Virus record (IMG/VR): IMGVR_UViG_3300026094_000847
Span: 1-63,589 of that record
DNA from: a virus
DNA length: 63,589 nucleotides
Reading direction: 5' to 3' (one strand)
The first letter of the stretch is position 1; each line of letters opens with the position of its first letter. Below are positions 386 to 54,687 of the stretch, piece after piece. Position numbers and translations under genes: made by a program. The notes under the pieces were generated by a model. The model had not been told where the DNA came from. It was given only the letters and a program-made list of their open reading frames with translations, and did no database searches.

Positions 386-1579
386 ATGATAGATAAGAAA
401 CCTGTTCAACATCTCATTGATCAATTAAAAGAAAATGGGAAGTATAGAGTTTTTAACGATATTATTCGAGAGCGTGGCGATTTCCCCAATGCACTTTGGT
501 ATGGTCCTTACAATATCAAAAACATTGTTAATTGGTGCAGTAACGACTATCTAGGCATGGGGCAACACAAGATTGTTATAGATGCCATGCACACTGCGCT
601 GAATCAAACCGGCTCTGGCAGCGGAGGAACGCGGAACATAGGCGGGACTTCGCACTATCATGTCGCGCTAGAGCACGAACTAGCAACACTGCATCAAAAG
701 CAGAGCGCACTGTTGTTTACAAGCGCCTATGTAGCAAACGAATGGAGCCTGATTGCGCTTGCAAAAATAATACCAAACATAGAATACATATCTGATTCAA
801 AGAATCACAACTCAATGATTATGGGCATACGCCATTCAGGCGCACCCAAACAGGTTTTTGAACACAACAACCTAGAGGATCTAGAAAGCCGTGTTGCTAA
901 TTCTAGACTCAGCGGCAACACGCCTTGTATTGTGTTCGAAAGTGTATACAGCATGGACGGTGATGTTTCGCCTATGCAAGAGATCTGTGATATTGCTGAC
1001 CGTTATGAAGCCATTACGTATATAGACGAAGTTCACGCTGTTGGTCTGTATGGTGAGACCGGCGGAGGTTGGACTGAAAAACTGGGGCTACAATCCCGTG
1101 TTGACATAGTCAACGGAACCCTGGGGAAGGCATTTGGCGTCCAAGGAGGATATATCGCCGCGGACAGCGATGTCACAGATGCTATTCGACTGGTTAGTGC
1201 AGGATTTATTTTCACTACTTCAATGAGTCCTGTTACCTGCGCCGGCGCAATGGCATCTGTCAAATGGTTAAAGCAAAACAACTATATTAGGGAACAGCAT
1301 CAAGAAAGAGCGCAACGTCTAAAAGAACTGCTACAGCAGGCGGAATTGCCTGTAATGAACAGTGCAACGCATATTGTGCCTGTAATGGTAGGCAATGCCA
1401 AACGATGCAAAGCAATGAGTGACGAGTTACTGAACGAGCATAACATCTATGTTCAGCCTATTAATTCGCCAACTGTTGATGTGGGAACAGAACGATTGAG
1501 ATTTGCTCCGACGCCGTTTCATTCTGACTCAATGATGAGCGAACTGGTTTGCGCACTTCAATCGGTGTTCAAATCTTGA
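386..1579 (+). CDS. hemA: 5-aminolevulinate synthase
   Basis: PLP enzyme of the alpha-oxoamine synthase family that condenses glycine and succinyl-CoA to 5-aminolevulinate, the first committed step of C4-type haem synthesis. Visible signatures are [10 protein letters not shown] (50-59), the glycine-rich GSGSGGTRN (76-84), YSMDGD (188-193), DEVHAVG (214-220) and the PLP lysine K248 in GTLGKAFG. The C-terminal part keeps the INSPTV and [11 protein letters not shown] segments that separate ALAS from 8-amino-7-oxononanoate synthase and KBL. At 397 residues it matches the length of bacterial ALAS and looks intact. It stands alone, facing a leftward cluster. This route is typical of Alphaproteobacteria, which suggests acquisition from such a host. 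It probably boosts haem or tetrapyrrole supply during infection (inference). Confidence 0.93.
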
Positions 1580-5873: not shown

Positions 5874-6629
5874 TTGAAAATTAAAAAAACAATATTAGAT
5901 AGAATAGAATCAAAATTTTCTAACACATATGAATTACAACAGCGTTATAGAGCGCATCCCTGCTATTCTCTAATAGAAATTAAAAACTTTCTTCCTGTTG
6001 AAATAACACGAAAACTAGCCAAAGAACTAGACTATATCCCTCTTTCAGAATGTAGGAATTTTACTCGCCGCGGCTCTAACATATATGAATATAACAAGTT
6101 AGACGATACTCCAGTTGCTGACGAACTCGTACATGCCCTACATAGTTCTCAATTTATTAGCTGGTTGCAACAAGTAACTGATACTGTCGATATTATTCCA
6201 GATCCGCATCTAATCGGAGCAGGATATTCTAAAGCTTATAAAGGCGATAGTCTAAAGGTACATACAGATTTTAACTGGAACGACGAACTAAGATTGCACA
6301 GAAGATTGAATACTATTATCTTTCTCAATGAAAATTGGAAGGATGAGTACGGCGGACATTTAGAATTTTGGGACACAGAAAACGAAAACATGCTGTCTAA
6401 GATAAAGCCTGACGCTGGTAATTTACTAATTTGGAGCTATCATAACCTTGCCTATCACGGTTATCCAGAGCCTATGCATTGTCCAAAAAATGAGCCTAGA
6501 CGCAATTTTAGACTTTTCTATTATGTTAGCAATGCAAAACCAGATGACAAACATCCGCCTCATAGAAGTTTATATTGGTTTGACAAAAACACAAAAACCC
6601 CTTATGACGCATCCTGGAAAGAAAGATGA
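5874..6629 (+). CDS. 2-oxoglutarate/Fe(II) oxygenase, prolyl-4-hydroxylase type
   Basis: A 251-residue protein with the double-stranded beta-helix signature: HTDFNWN supplies the HxD pair, YHGYPEP the distal histidine and RRNFRLFYY the 2-oxoglutarate-binding arginine. The segment IFLNENWKDEYGGHLEFWD is characteristic of the P4H/Tpa1 type. The start is an unusual TTG after AAGGAT, since no in-frame ATG or GTG lies near. First gene of a tightly overlapping five-gene rightward operon (to 9904). It probably hydroxylates a protein or small molecule; the substrate is unknown. Confidence 0.85.
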   Translation: MKIKKTILDRIESKFSNTYELQQRYRAHPCYSLIEIKNFLPVEITRKLAKELDYIPLSECRNFTRRGSNIYEYNKLDDTPVADELVHALHSSQFISWLQQVTDTVDIIPDPHLIGAGYSKAYKGDSLKVHTDFNWNDELRLHRRLNTIIFLNENWKDEYGGHLEFWDTENENMLSKIKPDAGNLLIWSYHNLAYHGYPEPMHCPKNEPRRNFRLFYYVSNAKPDDKHPPHRSLYWFDKNTKTPYDASWKER

Positions 6630-7144
6630 AGACGCTGCATATAGATTTACCCAACTTTAATTTTAAAAATCTTAACTGGCTTGCACACGACAATGTTAGT
6701 TCGCAAGGTCGTGATGCAAAGTTCGAAGAACAAAACAGAAAATATATCGAAGCAGGTTTTACAGAATATAATTCTTTTTATTATCAAGCGTTTGATATAA
6801 CAGAAGAAATTACACAATTTGCACATGATCTTTTTCCTCGTTGTTCTATTTCTGTAATGTGTCAACCTCCAGGACAAACTCTGCCCAGTCACGAAGATAC
6901 TTTTTATAAATTTTCGAAGCTCAACGATGTTGACCCGTACAAGTGTGTAAGAGTAAATATATTTCTAGAAGATTGGCAGAGTGGACACTATTTTGAAATA
7001 AACGATACTCCTGTAGTACCGTGGGAGAGAGGGGATGCAGTTGTTATCTATAGAGACGAATTACATCTAAGCGGCAACATGGGTATGACCGAAAAATACA
7101 CTATGCAAATAACTGGAGTTGAAAGTGAACTTAAGAGGTGCTAA
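6626..7144 (+). CDS. Aspartyl/asparaginyl hydroxylase-like 2OG oxygenase
   Basis: A 172-residue protein. LPSHEDTFYK carries the first metal histidine, CVRVNIFLEDWQSGHYFEI the core strands, and RDELHLSGN a second histidine. This order resembles the aspartyl/asparaginyl beta-hydroxylase branch of the cupin fold. The ATG overlaps the upstream stop by 4 nt, so the two oxygenases are coupled. The lack of a clear HxD pair means it may act on a different metal set or be non-catalytic. Confidence 0.65.
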   Translation: MKTLHIDLPNFNFKNLNWLAHDNVSSQGRDAKFEEQNRKYIEAGFTEYNSFYYQAFDITEEITQFAHDLFPRCSISVMCQPPGQTLPSHEDTFYKFSKLNDVDPYKCVRVNIFLEDWQSGHYFEINDTPVVPWERGDAVVIYRDELHLSGNMGMTEKYTMQITGVESELKRC

Positions 7145-7991
7145 ACCCGTACAAGATCCTGCAATTAAGACATTTATTTCGCATCTCGAGCCTTCGCACG
7201 ATTTATACAACGAAGATATACAGGAACAGTTTATAGAAAAGTTTTTCAAATGGATTAATTCTAGCGAATTAAATTCTCTAAAGGGTTTAGAAACATTTAT
7301 AAACCGTAAGCTTACAGCAGGAACAGCCCAAACATTTGACCATTTTTATTGGGCAAACAAAACAAGAAGATTTAGATTCTATAAAGGCGAATTTATGTAT
7401 CACTCTGCCTGTTTAAAAAATGGCGGAGAATTTGAATATATCGAAAATGCCGACCTAGATGTAAACGATGCGGTAATTGTTTCTGTACCTTTTTCGGATT
7501 GGGGTACACAAAGACCTATGCAGAATTTACTAGAAACTTGTGATAGTCTTGATATTCCAGTACTATTAGATTTTGCATATTATCCTTGTGCTAAAAATAT
7601 CAGTATCGATCTAGCAAAACACAAATCAATCAATACTGTGGCCTTTTCTATATCAAAAGCCTTTGCTGGAGCAGAGTTTTTACGAGTAGGCATGCGTTTA
7701 CAAAAACAGGATCGAGACGACGGCATAGATGTTTTTAATTCTGTAGAAATGGTGAGTAGAGTCGGTATTTCTATAGCCTACCAGTTGATATCAGAATTTT
7801 CAGTAGATCATAATTGGCACACATACAAAGACGTTTATAAAGGAGTGTGCGAAGAATTAGAACTAGAACCTACAGATTGCGTAATGTTTGGCCTCGGCGG
7901 AGATCGATATCAAGAATACAATAGAGGAGGTTCTGTGAATAGAGTTTGTGTATCAGATATAATCGGAGAAAAATTGAATGGCAGTAGTTAA
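7125..7991 (+). CDS. PLP-dependent aminotransferase-like protein (fold type I)
   Basis: A 288-residue protein. VLLDFAYYPC matches the strand bearing the PLP-pyridine aspartate, and FSISKAFAGAEFLRVGM matches the Schiff-base lysine motif of class I/II aminotransferases. It is about 100 residues shorter than a typical aminotransferase and lacks an obvious small C-terminal domain. I place the start at GTG 7125 (GGAG 8 nt upstream); a TTG at 7119 is possible. It overlaps both neighbours. It may make or consume an amino group that the next gene's enzyme converts to a guanidino group. Confidence 0.65.
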   Translation: MNLRGAKPVQDPAIKTFISHLEPSHDLYNEDIQEQFIEKFFKWINSSELNSLKGLETFINRKLTAGTAQTFDHFYWANKTRRFRFYKGEFMYHSACLKNGGEFEYIENADLDVNDAVIVSVPFSDWGTQRPMQNLLETCDSLDIPVLLDFAYYPCAKNISIDLAKHKSINTVAFSISKAFAGAEFLRVGMRLQKQDRDDGIDVFNSVEMVSRVGISIAYQLISEFSVDHNWHTYKDVYKGVCEELELEPTDCVMFGLGGDRYQEYNRGGSVNRVCVSDIIGEKLNGSS

Positions 7992-9039
7992 TAGTCACAA
8001 TGACTGGGATCCCCTTGAAGAAATATTTGTAGGGGTTGCTGATCATGCTAGAATTCCTACCGTAGACCAATCTACCCACAGTTTCGGATTCGCTGATTGC
8101 ACCCATGACGAGATTAAAGACCTAGAAGGTCCGTCACCGCAATGGGTTATAGACGAAGCAAATGAAGACCTCGACCGTCTATCAGACGATCTGCGCAAAC
8201 TAGGAGTTACTGTACGCAGACCAGAAGCAATTGATCACTCAAAGTCATTTAAATCTCCAGACTGGGAAACAACCGGCTGGTATACCTATTGCCCTCGAGA
8301 TTTACTGCTACCTTTGGACAACCTAATTATCGATTGTCCAGGAGCAATGAGAGCTAGACAGTATGAAACTCTTGCATATAGAGATTTCTTGTATGAAGTT
8401 GTAGACGGTGGCGGAGAATGGTTAGCTGCACCTCGTCCTCGCTTGCTTGACGAAAGCTATCAGCTAGATGATCTTTCTCAACCTACTCTTACAAACAAAG
8501 AGATTGTGTTCGATGCTCCTAATGTAGTTAGGTTAGGCAAAGACTTAATCTATCAAGTTTCTAATTCAGGTAACTTATGGGGTTATAAATGGCTTAAGAG
8601 TGTTTTACAGCCGAGAGGTTATAAAATACACCTAGCAGAAAAGTTTTATTCCTACTCTCATTTTGACTCTACAGTGATACCGCTTCGTCCTGGACTGGTG
8701 TTGTTTAATGGTGATAGATGTACACCCGATTGGTATCCTCCGATTTTTAAAGACTGGGACAAAATCTTTATTCCGGGCGACAAAGTAGTTGATATCGGAA
8801 GCAATTTAGAAGGCAATGTTTCTCCTTGCTCTAAGTATATCGGACTTAATATGCTCAGTGTAAACGAAGACTGTGTTATTATCGATGAAAATCAAGAATA
8901 TGTTCGCAAGGAACTTGATAAATGGGGTATAGAATCTATTGGACTTCCTATGCGCCAAGCAAGAACGCTGTCGGGCGGATTTCACTGTGTAACCCTTGAC
9001 ACAAAGCGTAAAGGAAAATTGGAAGACTATTTTGCGTGA
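7978..9039 (+). CDS. Glycine/inosamine-type amidinotransferase
   Basis: A 353-residue member of the arginine:amine amidinotransferase family, which moves the amidino group of arginine to an amine. The catalytic set is recognisable: D179 in FDAPNVVR, H228 in SHFDSTVIPLRPG and C337 in GGFHCVTLDT. The 49-residue Asp-His spacing equals that of human AGAT (D254/H303). It overlaps the upstream PLP gene by 14 nt and the downstream radical SAM gene. It likely guanidinylates a product of this operon; the acceptor is unknown. Confidence 0.9.
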   Translation: MAVVNSHNDWDPLEEIFVGVADHARIPTVDQSTHSFGFADCTHDEIKDLEGPSPQWVIDEANEDLDRLSDDLRKLGVTVRRPEAIDHSKSFKSPDWETTGWYTYCPRDLLLPLDNLIIDCPGAMRARQYETLAYRDFLYEVVDGGGEWLAAPRPRLLDESYQLDDLSQPTLTNKEIVFDAPNVVRLGKDLIYQVSNSGNLWGYKWLKSVLQPRGYKIHLAEKFYSYSHFDSTVIPLRPGLVLFNGDRCTPDWYPPIFKDWDKIFIPGDKVVDIGSNLEGNVSPCSKYIGLNMLSVNEDCVIIDENQEYVRKELDKWGIESIGLPMRQARTLSGGFHCVTLDTKRKGKLEDYFA

Positions 9040-9904
9040 CAGAGATCGAGGACACTGGATACCAAATTTAGAATGGATGATTACAACATCCTGTGACCTT
9101 GCCTGTTCGGGTTGCGATCGATTTATCGATTTCGGACATAATTGGACAGAAAGTTTTGAAGATATAAAGACCAATATGGCATTTTGGAGCCAGCACCTTG
9201 AACCAGATAACCTAACAATAATTGGCGGAGAACCGTTAATTCATCCTCGCATAGCAGATATTTGTAAAGTTGCTAGAGAAAATTTTGATCATGCACAAAT
9301 TGAAATTTTTACTAACGGATTATTGCTTCCTAAACGTCCAAAGCTAATAGACAGATTATTAAAGCTTGGCAAGACCAGGCTTTCTGTTACATATCACACA
9401 CGCGATGAATTTGTAAGATCCAAAATAGACGAAAATATTAAAAAATTTATTTTTAAAGACTATCACTGGAGACAGATTGACAATAATGCTTGGCAGTACG
9501 AAAGCCTTATATTCGAAACTACTGATCCGCCTTATGAAGGCTGGCAAGAATATCGCAGAGAAATTGCCGGAGAGCTAAAACCTTACAATGACGGCGACCC
9601 AGAAGGTAGTTATAATGCTTGTGGCGTAAATCACTTTCCTATAATTTATAACAATAGATTATACAAGTGTCCACCGATTAGTATGGTTAAAACACACTTG
9701 AAGAAATACGATAGATTAAACGATCCTGATTGGGCACCCTATTTAAAATACAAAGGCCTCGGAACAGACTTCACAGAAGAAGAACTGGCGGAGTTTGTGG
9801 ATAATGTTTTTAAACCACACGCAATTTGCGGAATGTGTCCTGTAACCCCTATCAATAATCCACAGCCAGATGCTGTTATTAAACATAAGATAGAAAAATT
9901 ATAA
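9032..9904 (+). CDS. Radical SAM enzyme
   Basis: The CxxxCxxC cluster motif is in TTSCDLACSGC (cysteines 21, 25, 28 with this start), followed by GGEPLIHP, the SAM-binding GGE motif. Further cysteines near the C-terminus (NACG, YKCPP, ICGMCP) suggest auxiliary Fe-S ligands, SPASM-like. The start is uncertain: TTG 9032 gives an 8-nt overlap like the other genes of the operon, while TTG 8996 adds 12 residues. It is the last gene of the operon. It could oxidise, epimerise or crosslink a peptide or small molecule; the substrate is unknown. Confidence 0.88.
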   Translation: MRDRDRGHWIPNLEWMITTSCDLACSGCDRFIDFGHNWTESFEDIKTNMAFWSQHLEPDNLTIIGGEPLIHPRIADICKVARENFDHAQIEIFTNGLLLPKRPKLIDRLLKLGKTRLSVTYHTRDEFVRSKIDENIKKFIFKDYHWRQIDNNAWQYESLIFETTDPPYEGWQEYRREIAGELKPYNDGDPEGSYNACGVNHFPIIYNNRLYKCPPISMVKTHLKKYDRLNDPDWAPYLKYKGLGTDFTEEELAEFVDNVFKPHAICGMCPVTPINNPQPDAVIKHKIEKL

Positions 9905-11128: not shown

Positions 11129-11367
11129 TATATCAACCCTGCAGAGCCTAACACTGCTGTGATCAGCAGAGCTTTGGTTTCGAGATCATCAGATGCTCTA
11201 TCTAGCTCGCGTTCGTCTATGATACGACTCATGATGTCTTGAAACTCCATGTCGTCTAGACCGCCGCCTTCATACTGTTCTAGTACTGCAAGTGCCGTCT
11301 GTGCTCGTGAACTGGCCCAATGTTCATTGGCTTCGCTCAACTGTTCTAGTAGATCTCGTTCTCTCAT
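11128..11367 (-). CDS. Small helical protein, unknown function
   Basis: A 79-residue acidic, predicted helical protein. No ribosome site precedes the ATG. Instead AATAAATA on the minus strand ends 6 nt before it, so its message may be leaderless. Overlaps the start of the following gene. Confidence 0.6.
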   Translation of the reverse strand: MRERDLLEQLSEANEHWASSRAQTALAVLEQYEGGGLDDMEFQDIMSRIIDERELDRASDDLETKALLITAVLGSAGLI

Positions 11368-11373
11368 ATATAA

Positions 11374-11381
11374 TATTTATT
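11374..11381 (-). promoter_or_regulatory. Late-promoter-like AATAAATA
   Basis: Minus-strand AATAAATA with 6 nt to the ATG of the 79-residue gene. Confidence 0.4.
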
Positions 11382-11426
11382 ATCAGATTGGCTGATTTAA
11401 TTTTATTCTATCTGATAACTATCTAT

Positions 11427-11984
11427 ATGAAGAGCTTGCTAGACTATGTTGGAATTTATCATTCAGTTGTCAATAAAGATCTGTGTGATGAGATTTTACA
11501 TGAATTAAACATCGCCGAATATATTGAACATGGATTCTATTCACACAGTGATAAAAAAAGATTCAAAACTGATGCAGAACCCTATATTAGTCATACAGAG
11601 ATAGAAAAAATATCGTATCTAAATGACATTGTAAATCAATGCTTAATTACCTACGTATATGAAAAGTCTGGAGGATATCTACCAGGGTTTGACGGATTCA
11701 CTAACGTAAGATTTAACAAATATCAAAAAGGACAAATTATGAGCAAGCACTGCGATAGAGTCCAAGAGATGTTCGATGGTGAACGAAAAGGAATTCCTAC
11801 ACTATCCGTGGTAGGGCTCCTCAATGATGATTTTACAGGTGGCGATTTTATTATGTTCGAAGACACTAAAATAAATTTAGAAAAAGGCACAGTGATTGTG
11901 TTTCCATCTACATTTATGTATCCACATAGGGTTACAGAAGTGAAAACAGGAATCAGACACTCATTTGTGAGTTGGAGTTGGTAG
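11427..11984 (+). CDS. 2-oxoglutarate/Fe(II) oxygenase
   Basis: A 185-residue prolyl-4-hydroxylase-like protein. The metal ligands are in KHCDRVQ (HxD) and YPHRVTEV (distal His), with the 2OG arginine in GIRHSFVSW. VGLLNDDFTGGDFIMF is the usual core strand pair. The start at MKSLLDYVG is preferred because the longer frame extends across the promoter region of the divergent gene. Substrate unknown. Confidence 0.85.
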   Translation: MKSLLDYVGIYHSVVNKDLCDEILHELNIAEYIEHGFYSHSDKKRFKTDAEPYISHTEIEKISYLNDIVNQCLITYVYEKSGGYLPGFDGFTNVRFNKYQKGQIMSKHCDRVQEMFDGERKGIPTLSVVGLLNDDFTGGDFIMFEDTKINLEKGTVIVFPSTFMYPHRVTEVKTGIRHSFVSWSW

Positions 11985-29242: not shown

Positions 29243-29446
29243 ATGCCAACACAATACATAATGCCAATGGCTCGCAACGTTAACACAGGCCAAACTCAGA
29301 AGATTCAGGACCTAGCAGGTGGACGGTTTACTCAAACCCAACATCGTCTTGCACAACAGGTTGCTGAACAGTACGCACACAAGCTAAGCCAAAGCACAGG
29401 TGATGTGTGGGAAGGATTTATTAAAGACTACTCTCCAACCAGTTAA
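29243..29446 (+). CDS. Small conserved phage protein
   Basis: A 67-residue protein beginning MPTQYIMPMARNVNTGQTQK, with GGRFTQTQHRLAQQVAEQ. This layout (N-terminal RNVNTG, then a helix) is shared by small proteins of several marine phages. Driven by a late promoter with a normal leader. Function unknown. Confidence 0.65.
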   Translation: MPTQYIMPMARNVNTGQTQKIQDLAGGRFTQTQHRLAQQVAEQYAHKLSQSTGDVWEGFIKDYSPTS

Positions 29447-30039
29447 CCCCGCACAGGGTCATGTTCTGGCTGCATCATTCCTCTTACCCAGGTATCGAAT
29501 GCAACACTGTGTCTTTCACTGTGCGCTTCATCTACGGGATCCGTGTCGTGTTCAATGTACGAAGGAAACAGCACCAACAGCCCGGGCTCGGGACTGAATG
29601 TCCAATGCTGGCTGTTCAGTATATTTGTCTCTGCAGGAACTGTGCCGATGACCGACGGATGCGGTGTATATAGGTTTAACTGGCACGGATGGTGTTCAAA
29701 AAACAAAACTCCGCTGTAGTAACTGTTCACATGGTTGTGCCTTGATCTATTCATGCCTGCGAGGCTGCGATTTATCCAACTGTCTGTGATATACACACTG
29801 GTATTTGCATCTGATCGCAAAATGCTGTGATGCACAGTGTTACAGACTTCGTTCAGCTGCGTTTTGATGTCTAGCCATTCTGGACGATCCAGCAGTTTGT
29901 CGTCACGACTGATCTGGTTGATGTCATTGCGCTTCGCGGTTATCCAATCTATTTTGTCAAAGTCCGGTCGAGAATCCGTGTCTATACGTGTCACAAAAAC
30001 TGGACAGCTAAACAGTGGAACCGATTCAATTTCATTCAT
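29443..30039 (-). CDS. Putative 2OG-Fe(II) oxygenase (2OG-FeII_Oxy_5 type)
   Basis: A 198-residue protein. SWINRSLAGMNRSRHNHVNS, followed by YYSGVLFF and later LLVLFPSYIEHDTDP with RHSVAFD, fits the phage-common 2OG-FeII_Oxy_5 family. Metal ligands would be the HNH-region histidines and H in IEHD. Start at MNEIES, since an 11-residue upstream extension overlaps the next gene. Substrate unknown. Confidence 0.75.
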   Translation of the reverse strand: MNEIESVPLFSCPVFVTRIDTDSRPDFDKIDWITAKRNDINQISRDDKLLDRPEWLDIKTQLNEVCNTVHHSILRSDANTSVYITDSWINRSLAGMNRSRHNHVNSYYSGVLFFEHHPCQLNLYTPHPSVIGTVPAETNILNSQHWTFSPEPGLLVLFPSYIEHDTDPVDEAHSERHSVAFDTWVRGMMQPEHDPVRG

Positions 30040-30271
30040 AACACAGTATATATTGCAGATAGGTTTTTTCACAAAAAAATTCGCAGCTCAGTCTAGCCCG
30101 TGTGTGTTGCCGTTCTACCAGCATTTGAACTGTGCCTTCCTGTTCTTTTTTTGTTAGCCATGCAACACAATCTTCACCTATTTCTCTGTGCAACAAGGGC
30201 CAGTCGACTTCTAGATCGGGTCTAGGATGTGTATACCATCTACTGAGAACAACGATCTTACTCGTCATCAT
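30032..30271 (-). CDS. Small protein, unknown function
   Basis: A 79-residue protein starting MMTSKIVVLSRW, overlapping the end of the helicase gene by 14 nt. Rich in charged residues with three cysteines in the C-terminal half. Not recognised. Confidence 0.55.
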   Translation of the reverse strand: MMTSKIVVLSRWYTHPRPDLEVDWPLLHREIGEDCVAWLTKKEQEGTVQMLVERQHTRARLSCEFFCEKTYLQYILCYE

Positions 30272-32411: not shown

Positions 32412-32711
32412 CTATAATAAGCCATGTTCAAGACGCGTTGCTTCAGGCACCATTTCTAGTGTAAACGGAGGGTCGAATGTAACATCTACTTCAACACTGT
32501 TTACTCCTTCTAACTGCATAGGAGCCTGCCTGATATCATTGCAGATTTCGTCAGCAAAAGGACACATAGGCGATGTAAGTGTATGCAGAATCTTTACGTG
32601 ATCGCCTTCAACTTCTACATTATAGATTATCCCAAGATCCTGTACATTAATACTGATTTCAGGATCGTATACCTCTCTCAAAACATTTTTTACATCATCA
32701 ACTGTTACCAT
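32412..32711 (-). CDS. SufT/MIP18-like Fe-S assembly protein (DUF59)
   Basis: A 99-residue single-domain protein. VLREVYDPEISINVQDLGII and the cysteine in LTSPMCPFAD, then VDVTFDPPF, are diagnostic of the MIP18/PaaD family, whose bacterial SufT members aid Fe-S cluster maturation. It overlaps the carbamoyltransferase gene by 7 nt. It could help mature the phage's own Fe-S enzymes such as the radical SAM protein. Confidence 0.88.
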   Translation of the reverse strand: MVTVDDVKNVLREVYDPEISINVQDLGIIYNVEVEGDHVKILHTLTSPMCPFADEICNDIRQAPMQLEGVNSVEVDVTFDPPFTLEMVPEATRLEHGLL

Positions 32712-34162
32712 ACTTTTACTCCATATGTGTTTTCAAATTCTCGTGCGTCCTGTTCTGAATTTACCATGGGTCTGCCTTTCATATTTAGGCTGGTATTGAG
32801 CAGTACAGGACACCCTGTTTCTTTGTACCAGGCTTCTAGCAGTTTGCGAAAGCCTGTGTTGTCGTCTTTGCCTACTGTTTGAACTCTAGCAGTACCATCA
32901 GCATGTACAACTGCTGGTATTGCTTCAGGGTCCTTAACCACCGCCGTAGACTGCATATAAGGGCCTACAACCCCGTCGAAATAGTCTTGGGCATGCTCGG
33001 CCAGCACCGCAGGAGCAAACGGCCTAAATTGCTGGCGTTTTTTAATTTCATTTACCCTTTGTTTGTTATCATGTGTTCTAGGATCAGCCAGCAGACTTCT
33101 ATTGCCCAGCGCTCTTGGGCCATACTCGGCAGGCCCATTGGCCACACCACACAGACCGTTAGAAACAAGGTCCTGTATCACGGGTTTAATAGGGTATGGA
33201 CGTTTTATGTTATACCCTAGATAAGGCCCCTGCCAATCTATGCGCATATTATAATGCCCTAAAACAGCACCCACAGCAGATCCTGCATCTCCCGGGTTGG
33301 GCATAATCCACACGCTGTCGTAATACTTGTAGGCCAAACTGTTTGCGCTACAGTTTAGTGCGCACCCTCCCATCAGCACTAGGTTCTTACTGGGCAAACG
33401 TTGTTCAGTGTAACGCAAAACAGATTCTAACATCTCTTCGTATATTTTTTGCGTTGCCGCCGCAATATCAAATCTATCTTGCTCTGTGTTTAAATCAGGC
33501 CTCCACCACTTACACCCGCGGTGCAGATTTTGTTTGAATGTGATGTCGGGATGGCCTATGCGGTTAACAAAATCGTTTAAAATTTCTTTTCGATATTTGT
33601 TAGGATCGCCGTATGCAGCCATGCCCATGAGAATGTATTCGTCCTCGTTAGGCTTTAGACCCACACGCTGTGTCATGGCCGAATACCATAATCCTACAGA
33701 GTGAGGATAGCTTTGAGAGTATGCTTTGGTTAGATTGTTGCCCTGTCCTTCCCAAACAGTGAGTGTTTCAAATTCACCAATCGAGTCAATAACGACCACA
33801 GTGGCGTCATCATAAGGGCTAGTAAAAAAACCAGCGGCAGCATGGCTACGATGGTGACTGCAATAATCAACTGTAGAATTAACCCCATAACCGCGCAGAT
33901 AAGCGCGAATGTCATTATCACGCCGCCGCCAACCTTGGCCTGCCCGTATCTGTCTAACTGTCTTTCTAAATGGTCTCTCATACCAAACTACTTTGTCTGG
34001 CTCGCCCCAACGTCGAGCATATTCTATTAGTTTAGTATTTAAGTGAGGATCATTTTTTATGCCGCTGAAGCGCTCGCTGTGCGAAGCAAATTCTAGTTTG
34101 TTTTCTGCGAACACAGCCAAGGCGGCATCGTGACTGTTAGCACTTATACCCCATGTTATCAT
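32705..34162 (-). CDS. Carbamoyltransferase (NodU/CmcH family)
   Basis: A 485-residue protein. The N-terminal Kae1-like part has SANSHDAALAV, the metal-binding HHRSHAAAGF and EDEYILMGMAAYG; the C-terminal YrdC-like part has GPAEYGPRALGNRSLLADPR and CPVLLNTSLNMKGRPMV. These enzymes transfer carbamoyl from carbamoyl phosphate to hydroxyl groups of natural products or sugars. Full length by family standards. Homologues occur in marine phages. The acceptor here may be a glycan or modified base. Confidence 0.93.
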   Translation of the reverse strand: MITWGISANSHDAALAVFAENKLEFASHSERFSGIKNDPHLNTKLIEYARRWGEPDKVVWYERPFRKTVRQIRAGQGWRRRDNDIRAYLRGYGVNSTVDYCSHHRSHAAAGFFTSPYDDATVVVIDSIGEFETLTVWEGQGNNLTKAYSQSYPHSVGLWYSAMTQRVGLKPNEDEYILMGMAAYGDPNKYRKEILNDFVNRIGHPDITFKQNLHRGCKWWRPDLNTEQDRFDIAAATQKIYEEMLESVLRYTEQRLPSKNLVLMGGCALNCSANSLAYKYYDSVWIMPNPGDAGSAVGAVLGHYNMRIDWQGPYLGYNIKRPYPIKPVIQDLVSNGLCGVANGPAEYGPRALGNRSLLADPRTHDNKQRVNEIKKRQQFRPFAPAVLAEHAQDYFDGVVGPYMQSTAVVKDPEAIPAVVHADGTARVQTVGKDDNTGFRKLLEAWYKETGCPVLLNTSLNMKGRPMVNSEQDAREFENTYGVKVW

Positions 34163-36414: not shown

Positions 36415-36786
36415 ATGAAGATTTCAGATAACTTACAGGAAAATTTTCCGTTTATAAGCGTTATAAACCATACCGATAAAGAGTATGTAGGAATCATAAT
36501 CAATCAAGATGCTAATATAACCAGCATGTATGATTACGAAGCTCTTAGAACCGATGTAGAAAAACAGGCGTTGCTTGATCTTGGAGAAGCATGGTGGTGG
36601 GAAAGCAATAGGAGTATTCCTATAAATATTTTTCTCAATAAAGAAATACAACCGTTTGCCTACTGCATAAAAAATTTTAACAGTAAAGATGTTAAGGTTT
36701 TGCTAGGGCCAGCAACCAGTTTGAACGACTTTGTGGTTAAAAGAGTTAAAAGAAAATCAATTACATTAGTTAAAAAAACTAACTAA
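36415..36786 (+). CDS. Conserved marine T4-like phage protein
   Basis: A 123-residue protein. YVGIIINQDANITSMYDYEAL and LLDLGEAWWWESNRSIPIN, INIFL and a basic tail follow a pattern I recognise from cyanophage genomes (segments quoted in part). It faces two leftward genes, convergent with the oxygenase at its 3' end. Role unknown. Confidence 0.75.
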   Translation: MKISDNLQENFPFISVINHTDKEYVGIIINQDANITSMYDYEALRTDVEKQALLDLGEAWWWESNRSIPINIFLNKEIQPFAYCIKNFNSKDVKVLLGPATSLNDFVVKRVKRKSITLVKKTN

Positions 36787-37327
36787 CAAATTTGAACCAA
36801 CCGGTTGCAATTATTTTTTCTTGTTCACTACTTACAATTCCTCTATGTAGGTGTGTGAAGTCAGCAGGCCATATTACACTTAGTCCTTTTACGGCTTCTA
36901 ATTTAAAATCTTGATAATACCATTCGGTTCCGCCACTACTCACAGTATTGAGATATGTCATATACACAAGTTGTCTTGACGCATCGCCATTATCACGTTC
37001 ATAATGCCATACTTTATATCCTCCGCCGGGTGGATAGAATTGTATTAAGTTAGTTTGTTCAGTAACTAAATTAAAATGGTCGATTCCAAATCTATTTACA
37101 TAGCCTTCGTAACCATTTTGCAAATGATTAAAGTAATCGACAATGGCCGGATGGGTCGAGTGGTTGTAAAAAAGTAAATCTGTTGACTGCTTAACTGCAA
37201 AATCTACAATGCCTGTATTACCTACAGACCCGATATGTCTATATTCGTCGCTTGCAATCTTAAAATATTCAAGTAAATTATCGCAAACATATTCGGGCAT
37301 TGTCCAAGTATGAATAAAATTTTCCAT
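36779..37327 (-). CDS. Putative 2OG oxygenase, prolyl-4-hydroxylase-like
   Basis: A 182-residue protein. YMTYLNTVSSGGTEWYYQDF and WPADFTHLHRGIVSS match the P4H fold, but the usual HxD reads HYE in KVWHYERD, so the first metal pair is altered. Glutamate can replace aspartate in some relatives. Start at MENFIHTW, which overlaps the stop of the upstream gene (TAATG). Substrate unknown. Confidence 0.7.
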   Translation of the reverse strand: MENFIHTWTMPEYVCDNLLEYFKIASDEYRHIGSVGNTGIVDFAVKQSTDLLFYNHSTHPAIVDYFNHLQNGYEGYVNRFGIDHFNLVTEQTNLIQFYPPGGGYKVWHYERDNGDASRQLVYMTYLNTVSSGGTEWYYQDFKLEAVKGLSVIWPADFTHLHRGIVSSEQEKIIATGWFKFVS

Positions 37328-49746: not shown

Positions 49747-51270
49747 TCAATGAAACTGTGCATAATAATCAAAACTATTAGGAAAACTTTCGATAATATT
49801 TCGTCTATTATCTAAATAGGGTTGCATTTTGCAATCTAATGACTTTAAAACATCAGGATCTTTATATCCCCAGAAATCCAAATGGCTTGTCTTGAAATTA
49901 GTAAATGGATTAATTTTATGCCCTGCTAACATATACAGATGCGCTCCTAATTGAGGCCAATTAAGTAAGTCAGGCAAATCGTAAATCGATGCTGTCCTTA
50001 ACTCGTATATTTGTCTCATAACTGGACTATCTGTAAAATCTTGTTTAAGAATATCCTGCCAATATTTACTGTCGATCCTATTTGTCATGGCATAATGTAT
50101 GGTTATAAAATCTGCAAAATACAAAAATTGTTCTCTGCAGGCATGGTTAAAAGTATGTGCATCAAAATTATTCAAAATATCTTTACCTTCACAGATGTTA
50201 ATAAAATGTATAAGAAATTCGTGCACGCTCATTAAACCATTTGATTCTAGTGGCTCAATAAATGCACCGCTTAACCCTATGCTGATGCAGTTTTTGACCC
50301 ACATACGTTCACTCATTCCGTTGCGCATCCTAATATGCTTAAAATCCATCTGTTCATGTATTGGGCCTAAATAGGATTTAAATTCTTCTAATGCTTCCTC
50401 ATCACTGATGTATTCTCTAGCGTAATTGTAACCGGTCCCTATTCTTGCCCAATTTGGTATTTCCCAAACCCAACCGTTTTTCAAAGCAACCGAATTTGTA
50501 TATAGTTTTAATTCTTCTTTTTTATTTACATATGGTCTGCCAGCTGCCCAAGCACTATCGGTGTACGTCTTGTTATTAAACTCGCGCCACGGTTCACCCA
50601 GTGCGCCTTCTATCAATAACCTTTTAAAACCGGTGCAGTCAAAAAACACATCACCTGTAATAATTTCATTTTTTGTTTTTACGCCTGTTATAAATCCCTC
50701 TGCATCTTTTACAACTTGATTAACGTGGCCAACAATACGTTTTACACCTCTAGGAATTGAATACTCATCTCTTAGATAAGAATAAAACAAATGAGTGTCA
50801 AAATGCCAAGCAGCATCTTTCGTTATATCCCAACCATCTATTACCTGTGTAGGAACCTTATTTTTATCTAAACAGTTTGCAATAGGTGAAAGCATTTCAA
50901 CAAAGTTTTCAAATTCTACATCTGGATTATAGTTTTGATAAGCGAACCAATCAGTAACACTACAATGACGTTCGTCTAATCTTCCGAATGGGTAATGAAA
51001 CCCTTTTTTATTATTAGAATGAAAATTTTCAAAACGTATTGATAATTTATGAGTCGCGTTACATTTTGTTATTAAATCTTCGCTGGTTATTCCTAGATAA
51101 TGTAGCCAACGTCTCATTAACTGTGTTGTAGACTCGCCTACACCGACAGCAGGAACATCTGGAGATTCAACGACTGTGATACTTTTATGCGGGAAAGTTT
51201 TGATCAATGTTGCCGCTGTCATCCACCCTGCCGAGCCTCCACCTACTATTACAATATTGTTAAACTTCAT
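49747..51270 (-). CDS. Flavin-dependent tryptophan-halogenase-family protein
   Basis: A 507-residue protein. The FAD-binding GGGSAGWMTA at the N-terminus, catalytic-type lysine K75 in NATHKLS, the WVWEIP version of the WxWxIP motif and FIEPLESNGL all match PrnA-like halogenases. It needs FADH2 and halide. Related halogenases are known from marine cyanophages. It lies within a glycan cassette, so it may halogenate a sugar-linked or free aromatic substrate; identity unknown. Possible reductant: the FNR at 12265. Confidence 0.9.
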   Translation of the reverse strand: MKFNNIVIVGGGSAGWMTAATLIKTFPHKSITVVESPDVPAVGVGESTTQLMRRWLHYLGITSEDLITKCNATHKLSIRFENFHSNNKKGFHYPFGRLDERHCSVTDWFAYQNYNPDVEFENFVEMLSPIANCLDKNKVPTQVIDGWDITKDAAWHFDTHLFYSYLRDEYSIPRGVKRIVGHVNQVVKDAEGFITGVKTKNEIITGDVFFDCTGFKRLLIEGALGEPWREFNNKTYTDSAWAAGRPYVNKKEELKLYTNSVALKNGWVWEIPNWARIGTGYNYAREYISDEEALEEFKSYLGPIHEQMDFKHIRMRNGMSERMWVKNCISIGLSGAFIEPLESNGLMSVHEFLIHFINICEGKDILNNFDAHTFNHACREQFLYFADFITIHYAMTNRIDSKYWQDILKQDFTDSPVMRQIYELRTASIYDLPDLLNWPQLGAHLYMLAGHKINPFTNFKTSHLDFWGYKDPDVLKSLDCKMQPYLDNRRNIIESFPNSFDYYAQFH

Positions 51271-51953
51271 TTTTCATATCTCATCATATCAATCAGTTCG
51301 TTTTTCCATTCTCGGTGAAATTTGCAAAATCTATATTCTTCTTGCTCGAACCAGGGACCGCCTTCAGTATAGTGTATCAGTTTAGGTTTATCTAGATCGT
51401 TGTAAACGCCAACAAGATAATTCCATGTGTGATCTAGTTCTCCGATTTCGCCGTCATTTAGCCAACTAAATCGATGAAGATATGCGCCGTTTATTTCTGG
51501 ATTGTTAACTAACTCCTGAGTAAGAGCTCTATTGCTGGGGTGGCCACAATTAAACAGCATGACACTAGACCAATTCTTGCGCGGATATACTGTCTGTTTT
51601 TGTCCGTCCATTTTAGTGCCTTCTTTAACTTTATAATCGTGTTTAACACACATTACAGCGTATTTGTCATCGGCTTGATCAAAAAGTTCTTTGATGTCTG
51701 TTGTAAGGATCATGTCGCAATCCATAAATAGAGCCCACCCTTCGAAGTTGGCTAGTTCTGGCACTAAAAATCTTGTAAATGTAAACTCAGTGCTGGCAAG
51801 TTTATCTACAGGTCTAGTATACCAGCCTGCATCTCTCAATTCCTGTTGTTTTAATGGTCTTACATCTGCCTCTGGTTGTTTGCTTACAATGCTGTGTTTA
51901 CAAACTTGGTAAGCAATATCTTCTCTGGTATCATATCCTACGAACACTTTCAT
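51267..51953 (-). CDS. GT-A-type glycosyltransferase (GT8-like)
   Basis: A 228-residue protein. ALFMDCDMILTTDIKELFD is the DxD segment, KNWSSVMLFNCGHPSN and LDHTWNYLVG are further GT8-like elements. It overlaps the halogenase start by 4 nt and the upstream fusion gene at the other end. Probably transfers a sugar from a nucleotide donor. Confidence 0.8.
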   Translation of the reverse strand: MKVFVGYDTREDIAYQVCKHSIVSKQPEADVRPLKQQELRDAGWYTRPVDKLASTEFTFTRFLVPELANFEGWALFMDCDMILTTDIKELFDQADDKYAVMCVKHDYKVKEGTKMDGQKQTVYPRKNWSSVMLFNCGHPSNRALTQELVNNPEINGAYLHRFSWLNDGEIGELDHTWNYLVGVYNDLDKPKLIHYTEGGPWFEQEEYRFCKFHREWKNELIDMMRYEK

Positions 51954-52725
51954 AATTTCTTCTCTCTATGTCTTCCTCTATGCATTCGTCGCCTGTTTGA
52001 ATTTCCAAAACGTGAGCTGGTACTGTTTCAGGATTACTAGCACAATGCCAAACACCCTTGCCGATATTATATGGTAAGCTTTCTAATCTTAGATGTGCTG
52101 TGTCGAATCTCTCTTTGTATTCTGTCTCTATTTTAACAACGCCTTCTAGAATAATCCATTGTTCGTCGCGCTTAAAGTGTCTTTGGTCGCTTAGCCTCTT
52201 GCCCGGATATATTACAAGTTCTTTGACTTTATATCCCTTGTCTGGTTTGTCGTCTAGCACCCTCCAATAGCCCCACGATCTTTCTGTTTTCTGAGTTTTC
52301 CACTCGTCCAGTATCCAACTTGAAGAATTTGCTTTCTTATCGCCGCCAATTCCATATGCAAATGTTACTCGAGCATGATTAGAAAACCTATCTTCTTCTG
52401 GCACATTACCTTGCTTCCTATCCCCGCCGTTTGCAAATATTATAGGATCATTTGTTTTCCAAAAGTTTATAGTCTGTTTGATAGCATCGCAAGCAGTATC
52501 GTCAGAATCGTCGAAGTCAATTACATGATCAACATCAGCTAACGCATTAATAATAGCTTTGCGATCTTTGGCTGGCATGAAGGGTCTGCCTTTTTTACGT
52601 GCTAACCAGCTGTCCGAATTTACCCCCACAACTAGATAATCACCAAGGGACTTAGCAGATTTAAAGTATGAGATATGGCCTATATGAAGAGGGTCGAACC
52701 CACCTGTAACTAACACAATTTTCAT
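51931..52725 (-). CDS. Cytidylyltransferase-cupin fusion
   Basis: A 264-residue two-domain protein. Residues 1-130 are a nucleotidyltransferase with GGFDPLHIGH and its conserved lysine pair. Residues about 145-255 are a mannose-6-phosphate-isomerase-type cupin with RHFKRDEQWIILEG. The same two domains are encoded as separate adjacent genes at 1585-2353. Probably makes an activated sugar precursor for the glycan cassette. CATAAATA ends 5 nt before the ATG, no ribosome site. Confidence 0.85.
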   Translation of the reverse strand: MKIVLVTGGFDPLHIGHISYFKSAKSLGDYLVVGVNSDSWLARKKGRPFMPAKDRKAIINALADVDHVIDFDDSDDTACDAIKQTINFWKTNDPIIFANGGDRKQGNVPEEDRFSNHARVTFAYGIGGDKKANSSSWILDEWKTQKTERSWGYWRVLDDKPDKGYKVKELVIYPGKRLSDQRHFKRDEQWIILEGVVKIETEYKERFDTAHLRLESLPYNIGKGVWHCASNPETVPAHVLEIQTGDECIEEDIERRNYESVRRI

Positions 52726-52730
52726 CAGGG

Positions 52731-52738
52731 TATTTATG
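52731..52738 (-). promoter_or_regulatory. Late-promoter-like CATAAATA
   Basis: Minus strand, 5 nt before the ATG at 52725. Confidence 0.5.
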
Positions 52739-52762
52739 CATTAATATAATCATCACAGCAAC

Positions 52763-53356
52763 TTAAGATTTCAGCATCAATACTGTGTCTTGTCGCTCTT
52801 TGCTAGACTTATATCCAATGCTGTGATACTTTTTTAAGACGGATTCTACATGTGTAGTGTTAGATAAACTATTTGTTTCGAATTTTATTTTCATTGGATA
52901 TAAACTAGGTTTATCCAAAATAAAATCATAATACTGATCTAGAATACAACAGTCGCCGCCTTCGGTATCTATTTTTAGATATGCAAGATGTTCAATATGA
53001 AATAAATCATACAGTCGACCTATACAAATTTGCTGGACAACATCAATAGTCACATACTTCTGTAAATTATGCTGTATATGTAATGGGTGATATTTTTTAA
53101 CACTATTACACCCTTTTAGATAATTCTTTAATCTGAACTTATCTATAATCTCTGGTTTGATGTAGTAAACATCGACAGGATCCTCTGAACCGTCCAAACT
53201 TATTACATAATTTAATTTATGAACGTTTTTAGGATTCGGCAAGTCATCTAGATATATGTTTACAGGCTCGATTGAAATTCCAAAGGTTGATTCATCTGCT
53301 TTTTCTATCAGCGTATCAAAATTACTAGTTCCTATTTCAATAAAGTCTAACTTCAT
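52763..53356 (-). CDS. FkbM-type methyltransferase
   Basis: A 197-residue protein. FIEIGTSNFDTL is motif I and LAYLKIDTEGGDCCILD the FkbM signature (KIDxEG). It likely O-methylates a sugar. It is 7 nt downstream of a GT-A glycosyltransferase gene. Confidence 0.8.
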   Translation of the reverse strand: MKLDFIEIGTSNFDTLIEKADESTFGISIEPVNIYLDDLPNPKNVHKLNYVISLDGSEDPVDVYYIKPEIIDKFRLKNYLKGCNSVKKYHPLHIQHNLQKYVTIDVVQQICIGRLYDLFHIEHLAYLKIDTEGGDCCILDQYYDFILDKPSLYPMKIKFETNSLSNTTHVESVLKKYHSIGYKSSKERQDTVLMLKS

Positions 53357-53362
53357 AAGAAA

Positions 53363-53977
53363 CTATCCCTTAGGGAATCTGTCCCTATATTTTGATTTAT
53401 AGTGAATGATTCTTGCACTTGTCTGATCACGTTTGAAGAAAAAATTATTAAATGTTTTACAATCTAAAACTTTTACTTTAGCATCTAAAATATCTAAGGT
53501 TTTGTTAATATAACTGTTATTAGGAATTTTACAAATTCTATTCAAAGCATTTTGATCGCCATTTACTTCTAACGATATTTTACACCATTCATTTAAAAAA
53601 TTTATCGAGTTAGGTGTTTTTTTCCAAAAACTTACGCCACTATTTAAACTGCTCTTTCTAAATGTAACTGCTAGATCATAGTTATCTATTGCATTGTCTA
53701 CATGATACTGCATTATGCAATCTATATCTATCCATGCTAGATATTGGTCATCGTCTAACTTACTAAGTGCGTCTAAAATCACAAATGGTTTTTTTGGAAA
53801 CTTTTGTAACGATTTGCTACTTGTATTTGATTCAAATGAAATGCCAAAATCTAAGCCGCCAAGATTATAAAAAATAGGTTCGTATCCACATTTTCGAATA
53901 CTTGTTAAACAAGGATCTATAAATTTAATTAAGTTTGAATCCGATGCTACTACTATGTTAAGTATTCTTTCTGTCAT
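53363..53977 (-). CDS. GT-A-type glycosyltransferase
   Basis: A 204-residue protein. YLAWIDIDCIMQYH supplies the DxD, and SLNSGVSFWKKTPNS with DQNALNR matches nucleotide-sugar transferases of this fold. Overlaps the next gene by 1 nt. Confidence 0.75.
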   Translation of the reverse strand: MTERILNIVVASDSNLIKFIDPCLTSIRKCGYEPIFYNLGGLDFGISFESNTSSKSLQKFPKKPFVILDALSKLDDDQYLAWIDIDCIMQYHVDNAIDNYDLAVTFRKSSLNSGVSFWKKTPNSINFLNEWCKISLEVNGDQNALNRICKIPNNSYINKTLDILDAKVKVLDCKTFNNFFFKRDQTSARIIHYKSKYRDRFPKG

Positions 53978-54687
53978 TAGATTTTTTTTCGTTTTCTTGT
54001 AGGAAGTAATTTGTTTACAACATTTTCAGTAAACCAACTATTAAATTCGCCGTGTTCTTCTATAGTTTCTTTGAAGTAGGTTAATTTATTCGAAGTTACC
54101 TCCCAGCCGGGAATGTCATAAATAGGCCGGCCTACCGAAACGTGTATTCCATGAATGGGTCTTTTTGATAGTCCTTCGCTAAAAACTGCATTAGGATACG
54201 TTTCTCTTGTTATGTTATGCAAAATAGTTTCATCTTGACCTTTTATCGGCGCTTTACTTCTAGCAGATTTTGTTTCAGCATACCATTTCTCCGACTCTAC
54301 AAAATGCAATCCGGATAACCTATCTATCTTATTTGTTCTATAAATGTTACTAAAAGGTAGATTTGTCTCCTCCATATGCAATATATGAAAAGGCTGCACA
54401 TGTTCGGTATGCATTATATCAATATCGCAAATATATGTATGTTTCGTATTGGTTGTAGGTTCTACAATATATCGTAATACATCTGCTCGCCCTTTAGGTA
54501 ATTTGTGAAAAATTACGTCTTTTTGTTTTTTAAAAATCTCAGGTTGAGGAACAAATAATTCTATCTTGCAACCTGGATTGCTTTTTTTAGCAAAATAAAT
54601 AAATGGTTCTACAAAATTTAAATAATGCCCGTTGCAACAACTTAAAAATGTAAGGTCAGCAGTGTTATAATCTAAAGTATATCTCAT
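53977..54687 (-). CDS. GT-A-type glycosyltransferase-like protein
   Basis: A 236-residue protein. TYICDIDIMHTEHVQPFHIL is the DxD segment. KGQDETILHNITRETYP resembles the region that orients the acceptor. The N-terminal strand order agrees with the GT-A fold. Overlaps the next gene by 4 nt. Confidence 0.68.
   Translation of the reverse strand: MRYTLDYNTADLTFLSCCNGHYLNFVEPFIYFAKKSNPGCKIELFVPQPEIFKKQKDVIFHKLPKGRADVLRYIVEPTTNTKHTYICDIDIMHTEHVQPFHILHMEETNLPFSNIYRTNKIDRLSGLHFVESEKWYAETKSARSKAPIKGQDETILHNITRETYPNAVFSEGLSKRPIHGIHVSVGRPIYDIPGWEVTSNKLTYFKETIEEHGEFNSWFTENVVNKLLPTRKRKKI

Follow-up and report, generated by a model that had tools for sequence, protein, structure and literature searches.

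Gene content of the cassette

The window, i.e. the whole stretch of viral DNA of 63,589 nucleotides that was analyzed, harbors five rightward, overlapping genes at positions 5874–9904 on the plus strand, as initially annotated, and two of their start codons were corrected. og1 (5874..6629, 251 aa) begins with a TTG codon preceded by AAGGA and shares 4 nt with og2 (6626..7144, 172 aa). For the gene of the PLP enzyme (PLP, 7119..7991), GTG at 7125 is a likelier start than TTG at 7119, given a GGAG 7 nt upstream and relatives that start with MNLRGAKP, and this start leaves an overlap of 20 nt. PLP in turn overlaps by 14 nt with the amidinotransferase gene (AMT, 7978..9039). The radical SAM gene (RSAM, 8996..9904) likely starts at TTG 9032, where its relatives start, rather than at TTG 8996, by which the overlap of AMT and RSAM amounts to 8 instead of 44 nt. 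Among relatives, the overlap lengths group near similar values (−13 or −4, −20, −17 and −8).

The initial annotation had named two 2OG-oxygenase-like proteins, a PLP enzyme, an amidinotransferase and a radical SAM enzyme, and active-site residues are conserved in all five. Og1 matches 2OG-FeII_Oxy_3 (PF13640) above the Pfam cut-off (E 2.4e-15), its metal triad H130-x-D132...H195 is invariant in 18 homologues and R209/R213 are conserved, so that it carries the HxD...H triad, the 2OG-binding Arg/Lys and the family match of a 2OG/Fe(II) oxygenase. Og2 matched nothing in Pfam or PHROG and gave weak matches only in a PDB profile search. Its HxD...H motif (H89-x-D91...H147) is invariant across 28 homologues, as are R109 and N151, and past H147 there is no invariant Arg/Lys, with R109 and Q161 found instead. 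The AlphaFold model of this small protein (pLDDT 94) finds its best folds among double-stranded beta-helix/cupin proteins and 2OG oxygenases, and we regard og2 as a probable 2OG/Fe(II) oxygenase.

The short PLP enzyme shows only a sub-threshold match to Aminotran_1_2 in Pfam (0.0087), does not belong to the DegT family, and gave neither a sequence match in the PDB nor an hhalign match to a HisC of SAR116. Its AlphaFold model (pLDDT 91) has HisC, the Thr-P decarboxylase CobD and GntC as best PDB folds (E 5e-13), and the Schiff-base lysine K180, the pyridine-nitrogen aspartate D151 and the phosphate-binding R189 are invariant in an alignment of 32 homologues. The assignment to fold type I is secure because the model matches HisC-type enzymes of this fold and the three residues are kept; the more precise placement is a prediction from fold and conserved residues only. 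As HisC and CobD folds both match, the enzyme may be either an aminotransferase or a decarboxylase.

AMT aligns with the StrB1 structure 1bwd over its full length (residues 3–351, 3e-94) and is about 46% identical to StrB1 compared to 37% to the glycine amidinotransferase AGAT. The D179/H228/C337 set recognized initially is present: H228 and C337, together with D108 and D230, are invariant among 14 aligned AMTs, while D179 is Asp in 12 and Glu in two freshwater relatives. Full-length homology and the catalytic Asp, His and Cys mark the protein as a putative L-arginine:amine amidinotransferase of the StrB1 type. In the AMT tree, the phage proteins, StrB1 and two AMTs of picocyanobacteria form one group (94/91), and AGAT, SxtG and HsvA occupy a separate branch (97/98); the branch of StrB1 itself is long (0.89, support 88/79). 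These data back the predicted formation of a guanidino group from arginine, as had been proposed. A search of the PDB with a 33-residue fragment returned AGAT matches only and was set aside.

RSAM matches Radical_SAM in Pfam (5.2e-12) and has the hallmarks of an enzyme with a twitch domain, namely CX3CX2C (C33/C37/C40), GGE (77–79) and auxiliary cysteines of the type CX10GX4C...CX2C (C209...C225...C278-X2-C281). The cysteines are conserved among 21 homologues, with C225, C278 and C281 invariant and C209 kept in at least 90%; the motif glycine is Asn in the protein of the window and Gly in many relatives. The twitch fold does not allow the reaction of RSAM to be predicted, and the literature searched held nothing useful on its top radical SAM structure, 7wzv.

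Recurrence of the cassette in other phages

The five-gene set is found in many marine and freshwater phages. Its exact order, which we sought as the initial annotation had suggested, is kept in 31 of 88 AMT-bearing contigs despite divergence of the neighboring proteins to about 55–65% identity, and thus recurs more than by chance. AMT and PLP are adjacent in nearly all AMT-bearing contigs, the PLP gene lying at most three genes from AMT in 23 of 26 representatives chosen at 95% identity, and in a 343-kb phage record these two stand alone on the strand opposite to their neighbors. Such strong linkage across diverged phages bears out the proposal of one pathway, and neither finding that might have spoken against it was made, since the homologues do co-occur and even divergent ones retain the active sites of PLP and AMT. 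Frameshifted or dead PLP or AMT genes were ruled out, the active-site residues being retained down to 32% (PLP) and 25% (AMT) identity. The PLP–2OG pair also occurs without AMT, and hence oxidation may precede guanidination or be independent of it. The commonest downstream neighbor of the cassette is a 385-aa protein without a family match.

Across all bacterial genome contigs, the PLP gene was detected at three loci, one of them probably phage DNA, and samples of 136, 200 and 398 genomes yielded matches solely in carrier genomes known beforehand. Because bacterial searches gave so few carriers, the family is essentially viral. No homologous PLP gene was present in isolate phage records.

Sugar genes around the cassette and its relatives

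The only two bacterial AMTs found on the StrB1 branch, on which the connection to surface sugars is anchored, both lie in surface-polysaccharide loci. One is flanked by a pseudaminic-acid-type synthase and a cytidylyltransferase, in the order PseG-like, NeuB/PseI, AMT and CTP_transf_3 with PseC downstream; the other accompanies a WbuX amidotransferase, a glutamine amidotransferase and a polysaccharide deacetylase. Some AMTs of the bacterial branch on the SxtG side adjoin the hopanoid amino-sugar genes HpnI/HpnJ/HpnK, and a PLP–2OG pair of SAR116, rare in bacteria, sits among glycosyltransferases and RmlA/B/C/D.

In phages, the neighbors of the cassette include GT8, GT25, a TupA ATP-grasp protein, a CTP_transf/MPI fusion, an FkbM methyltransferase and a NodU-like carbamoyltransferase. 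A divergent group has the order PLP–AMT–2OG–2OG–NAD sugar epimerase, PLP–og2 islands of other phages contain epimerases and GT7, and some relatives in large phages lie among sugar epimerases and glycosyltransferases. The copy of cyanophage S-SCSM2R is located amid five glycosyltransferases, and that of a Campylobacter phage adjoins nucleotide-sugar transferases. A recognized sugar or glycan gene occurs within the fetched flanks of 14 of 23 phage representatives, though not of all, and on these flanks and Pfam matches sugar genes cluster with the cassette as in a phage glycan-modification island. The cassette itself encodes neither a glycosyltransferase nor a nucleotide-sugar enzyme. The window does possess a glycan island (51267..54687, minus strand, recognized by Pfam) with a GT8 glycosyltransferase, a cytidylyltransferase/mannose-P-isomerase fusion and a nucleotide-sugar transferase; it lies about 40 kb from the cassette, and in relatives the equivalents of its genes (clusters 10, 11 and 20) directly adjoin the cassette. 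Marine phage genomes hold glycan genes in many places, and the background of such co-location should therefore be high.

A probable role in glycan tailoring

The reading we favor, with a probability of roughly 0.55, is that the cassette is a set for glycan tailoring carried by large phages of aquatic habitats, T4-like ones included. From the intact active-site residues, the folds, the linkage, the tree placement and the sugar-locus context of relatives, we infer the following reaction order, substrate, glycan attachment and biological purpose. The HisC-like PLP enzyme would create an amine, its precursor being small or derived from a sugar and perhaps phosphorylated, and AMT would transfer the amidino group of L-arginine to this amine via an amidino-enzyme intermediate at Cys337, so that a guanidino group arises. 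Both 2OG oxygenases, together with RSAM of the twitch type, may hydroxylate or dehydrogenate precursor or product, and glycosyltransferases of phage or host would place the guanidino unit on a surface glycan, either the LPS/O-chain of the host during infection (e.g. for a superinfection block) or a virion glycan. A wider and more tentative proposal, which we hold at somewhat less than even odds, is that a dedicated pathway for guanidinylated sugars or sugar substituents is widespread in aquatic phages, ranging from T4-like myophages to jumbo phages, and alters charge and identity of a host-surface or virion glycan; surface glycans would thus be guanidinylated enzymatically, with a phage-specific HisC-like PLP family at the core of the pathway.

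The enzymes might instead make a free guanidino small molecule during infection, such as a modified amino acid or amino-alcohol that serves as a signal, inhibitor or metabolic aid and joins no polymer; in that case, PLP would follow the chemistry of guanitoxin synthesis or of HisC/CobD, and the acceptor of AMT would be a free amine. Members of the HisC/CobD fold family usually act on small amino acids or phosphates and not on sugars, which counts against a glycan, and both Thr-P decarboxylase and GntC, a PLP enzyme that takes part in guanitoxin biosynthesis, are among the fold matches of PLP. R275 of PLP, invariant among the aligned homologues, could bind a carboxylate, and three oxidative enzymes combined with PLP and AMT follow a natural-product-like logic. 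However, the cassette lacks an exporter, ligase, NRPS-like or resistance gene and the wider neighborhoods are of the glycan rather than the natural-product type, and we consider a free product rather unlikely.

Among the three options of the initial annotation, a glycan decoration gained positive evidence from the bacterial relatives in polysaccharide loci and the sugar genes around phage copies, a modified nucleobase gained none, and no conserved precursor ORF backs a peptide product. A guanidino nucleobase could shield phage DNA; known phage DNA hypermodification, as in the thymidine pathways, uses radical SAM and PLP enzymes, and nucleic acids are targets of some phage 2OG enzymes. Yet in 15 virus records that carry the cassette or PLP, with the window as one of them and some perhaps incomplete, the 5-hmdU DNA kinase HMUDK_hel occurs in none and the thymidylate synthase family in two, and the bacterial polysaccharide loci as well as the grouping of AMT with StrB1 likewise make DNA a very unlikely target. 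Similarly improbable is that RSAM and the 2OG enzymes modify a peptide or protein, be it RiPP-like or at tail-protein side chains, with AMT and PLP supplying a modified amino acid. This would suit the tail-fibre or neck-like genes next to the cassette in some contigs and the weak match of og1 to the peptide-modifying 2OG oxygenase YhhC (4.4e-7, far below cut-off), but no small precursor ORF is conserved family-wide near the cassette, the best candidates being limited to six or seven related contigs, RSAM is a BtrN-type single-cluster twitch and not a two-cluster SPASM enzyme, and the known acceptor of the StrB1 branch is a cyclitol and not a peptide. In virome papers, viral genes of the creatine pathway or for a glycine amidinotransferase are classed as auxiliary metabolism (PMC11360552, PMC8226683), and on this view AMT would be such an enzyme and feed the energy or nitrogen metabolism of the host. 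A creatine- or guanidinoacetate-type role is highly improbable in view of the closer relation of AMT to StrB1 than to AGAT; moreover, AMT has neither a guanidinoacetate methyltransferase nor a kinase as a recurrent neighbor, and the linkage to PLP, 2OG and RSAM genes would be left unexplained.

Should glycan tailoring hold true, phages build guanidino-bearing surface decorations with arginine as donor. Phage glycan islands and clusters of AMT and radical SAM genes in Campylobacter phages are already known; a guanidino surface decoration, whose chemistry is familiar from antibiotics such as streptomycin, was not found described for phages in the literature searched. It would provide a testable function for amidinotransferase genes filed under creatine/glycine metabolism in virome surveys, and also for the orphan genes of 2OG and radical SAM enzymes that abound in marine phages. 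A host or virion glycan with a positive charge could directly affect adsorption, superinfection exclusion and host range of very abundant ocean phages.

Comparison with known systems

StrB1, the inosamine-phosphate amidinotransferase of the streptomycin pathway (1BWD), has the same catalytic Asp/His/Cys as the phage AMT and shares with it the stretches [ST]H-x-D-S-T-x-x-PLRPGL and CS-x-x-IG-[LM]-N. Unlike StrB1, the phage AMT has 2OG oxygenases and a PLP enzyme resembling HisC as its partners, and the DegT aminotransferase, inositol dehydrogenase and kinase of the streptidine-type pathway are absent from the cassette, none of them recurring beside phage AMTs. GntC and other HisC-type enzymes have the fold of the phage PLP (TM about 0.6–0.69) at an identity of 11–18%. 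BtrN, a twitch radical SAM dehydrogenase of the aminocyclitol 2-deoxy-scyllo-inosamine (PMC9012708, PMC6231123), combines CX3CX2C with a four-cysteine twitch cluster as RSAM does; its structures 4m7s/4m7t match RSAM weakly (0.004–0.005) and are outscored by other families of radical SAM enzymes (7wzv, MoaA).

At the level of gene clusters, the hypervariable host-recognition or LPS-type islands of pelagi- and cyanomyophages contain glycosyltransferases, rfaE-like cytidylyltransferases, 2OG oxygenases and radical SAM cassettes, and no guanidine-forming cassette was found described in the available portions of these sources (PMC7029224, PMC9602691), the former of which proposes that pelagimyophage glycosyltransferases alter the host O-chain. 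Synechococcus phage S-SCSM2R clusters amidinotransferase, radical SAM and glycosyltransferase genes. In the Campylobacter phages CP220 and CPt10, amidinotransferase, radical SAM and nucleotide-sugar genes form a swapped module (PMC2853527), which, unlike the window cassette, has several radical SAM genes; the AMTs of these phages and of S-SCSM2R are only 28–42% identical to that of the window.

A recurrent five-gene cassette in a T4-like phage

The window is classed among the virus records of IMG/VR and, judged by its gene content (UvsX, UvsY and gp32 (T4-type), a primase/helicase and a large terminase read from the sequence, and a ligase assigned via PHROG), stems from a T4-like myophage. The five rightward, successively overlapping genes reported by the initial annotation are indeed present at 5874-9904 (+) and encode two 2OG oxygenase-type proteins (og1, og2), a short fold-type-I PLP enzyme (PLP), an amidinotransferase (AMT) and a radical SAM protein (RSAM). 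og1 and og2 overlap by 4 nt (ATGA). PLP probably starts at GTG 7125, because GGAG lies 7 nt upstream and the family N-terminus MNLRGAKP is obtained; this start gives a 20-nt overlap with og2. PLP and AMT overlap by 14 nt, and AMT and RSAM by 8 nt from the probable start TTG 9032 (44 nt with the longest ORF).

Relatives of AMT and PLP were found at 157 and 324 places in IMG/VR, respectively, of which 80 each were kept; as they were retrieved by similarity to the window, the sample is skewed to close relatives, and representatives were dereplicated at 95%. The homologues co-occur, with PLP located within three genes of AMT in 23 of 26 AMT representatives, the others belonging to isolated Synechococcus and Campylobacter phages. 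The exact order og1-og2-PLP-AMT-RSAM, which the initial annotation had proposed to look for in other phages, recurs in 31 of 88 contigs; the remaining ones are truncated at contig ends, carry small insertions or show variants such as PLP-AMT-2OG-2OG-sugar epimerase. In a 343-kb record, PLP and AMT are the only genes of the region oriented opposite to their neighbours. Of 15 PLP-bearing records that were sampled, 10 yielded no AMT; the records are fragments. Since PLP often adjoins og2 in these 10, PLP and 2OG genes may form an older core to which AMT was added later. The cassette is thus a real and conserved biosynthetic unit that is probably functional.

The window also encodes a 5-aminolevulinate synthase (386-1579 (+); TIGR01821, 565 bits versus a cut-off of 339) with relatives at 203 places in IMG/VR, the best 80 of the 203 being 72-79% identical; in isolate phage records identity reaches at most about 33%. 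Judged by sequence, two ORFs (58157-59833 (+) and 37327-37893 (-)) resemble separate parts of a DnaE-type DNA polymerase III alpha subunit.

Active sites of the cassette enzymes

AMT matches the inosamine-phosphate amidinotransferase StrB1 (1bwd) at 3e-94, outranking HsvA, SxtG and the glycine amidinotransferase AGAT. Within the previously noted D179/H228/C337 set, H228 and C337 are invariant, as are D108 and D230, while position 179 is Asp in only 12 of 14 sequences; it is Glu in L051 (3993-5045) and L057 (6001-7053), two relatives with an otherwise intact active site. Identity of AMT is mostly 80-93%, versus mostly 52-65% for the four accompanying proteins (L001-L056), which suggests that the AMT gene is either under stronger constraint or has recombined separately.

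PLP comprises 290 aa and scores under the Pfam cut-off. Its predicted model (pLDDT 91) matches HisC, CobD and the guanitoxin enzyme GntC, and D151, K180 and R189 are invariant across 32 homologues with identities down to 32%, which argues against a dead active site.

Pfam places og1 among the 2OG/Fe(II) oxygenases; its HxD...H triad is invariant and is followed by downstream arginines. No family could be assigned to og2; its H89-x-D91...H147 is kept in a profile of 28 homologues and its confident predicted model adopts a double-stranded beta-helix, but it is only a probable oxygenase because the usual distal Arg/Lys is absent. At least three further 2OG oxygenase-like genes (phrog_61, phrog_81) occur in the window (11292-11984 (+), 29443-30072 (-) and 36779-37369 (-)).

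Gene context points to sugars

Three lines of evidence point to sugars as the target of the cassette. Phage AMTs cluster with StrB1 and two picocyanobacterial AMTs (support 94/91), while AGAT, SxtG, HsvA and proteobacterial AMTs form a separate branch (97/98); the two picocyanobacterial genes lie in surface-sugar loci. One locus (L180, 8543-11537) contains a PseG-like protein, NeuB/PseI, AMT and CTP_transf_3 in a row with PseC downstream, and the other (L179, 1078-10208) includes WbuX, an N-acetyl sugar amidotransferase, together with a glutamine amidotransferase and a polysaccharide deacetylase. The presence of AMT in these polysaccharide loci, which are of nonulosonic-acid or acetamidino-sugar type, suggests guanidino surface sugars in bacteria too. 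Some AMTs of the 97/98 branch lie near the hopanoid amino-sugar genes HpnI/J/K, likewise an amino-sugar or cyclitol setting.

The second line is a rare bacterial PLP-og2 pair in a SAR116 genome, situated amid glycosyltransferases, a methyltransferase and RmlA/B/C/D. Thirdly, phage neighbours include GT8, GT25, GT7, sugar epimerases, cytidylyltransferase-MPI fusions, TupA ATP-grasp, FkbM methyltransferase and NodU-like carbamoyltransferase, the AMT of S-SCSM2R lies amid five glycosyltransferases, and the window carries a matching glycan island at 51-55 kb. This line is supportive only, since phages of this kind commonly carry glycan genes (PMC7029224, PMC9602691), so that a high background of co-location is expected.

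In several relatives, counterparts of the window's NodU/TobZ-like carbamoyltransferase (32705-34162 (-); Carbam_trans_N and _C) immediately precede the cassette. A tryptophan-halogenase-like flavoprotein (49747-51270 (-); PF04820, 2.3e-97) belongs to the glycan island, and other phages have a gene read as halogenase-like close to the cassette. Directly after PLP, one phage group rich in sugar epimerases encodes a TPP-dependent E1-dehydrogenase-like half protein (L161, 9849-10478), which hints at another route to the precursor.

Proposed pathway and alternatives

The cassette is most likely a guanidino-sugar tailoring module. Judged by its fold and residues, PLP would make an amine, which AMT is predicted to guanidinate using arginine, an established chemistry of its family for which the catalytic residues are present. 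og1, og2 and RSAM, by the families recognised, would carry out oxidation, and the gene context suggests that the guanidino unit would be attached to a host or virion glycan. HisC/CobD-type enzymes and StrB1 both prefer phosphorylated substrates; on this speculative analogy, a candidate substrate would be the phosphate of an amino alcohol or amino sugar.

The best rival is a free guanidino metabolite, to which the resemblance of the predicted PLP fold to GntC and CobD would fit and which is favoured by the fact that no cassette member attaches a sugar. Modification of DNA would be expected to involve other partners, but among 15 sampled, possibly partial records the 5-hmdU DNA kinase is absent and thymidylate-synthase-type enzymes are mostly absent. 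Similarly, no conserved precursor of a RiPP was found near the cassette, and a creatine pathway conflicts with both the AMT tree and the partner genes of AMT.

Comparison with known systems

We found no description of the cassette or of phage guanidinylation of glycans in the open-licence literature searched. Creatine-pathway genes of viruses are listed in an ocean virome survey (PMC11360552), and in the Campylobacter phages CP220 and CPt10 clusters of five radical SAM genes and a putative glycine amidinotransferase are swapped, which were judged likely non-essential metabolic modules in 2010 (PMC2853527). RSAM possesses CX3CX2C and GGE motifs and four C-terminal cysteines matching the first-four-cysteine SPASM pattern (PMC6231123), and is hence predicted to contain a twitch domain with a single cluster. 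BtrN, which oxidises an aminocyclitol alcohol, has an auxiliary cluster ligated by four cysteines (PMC9012708), but the profile match of RSAM to BtrN is weak.
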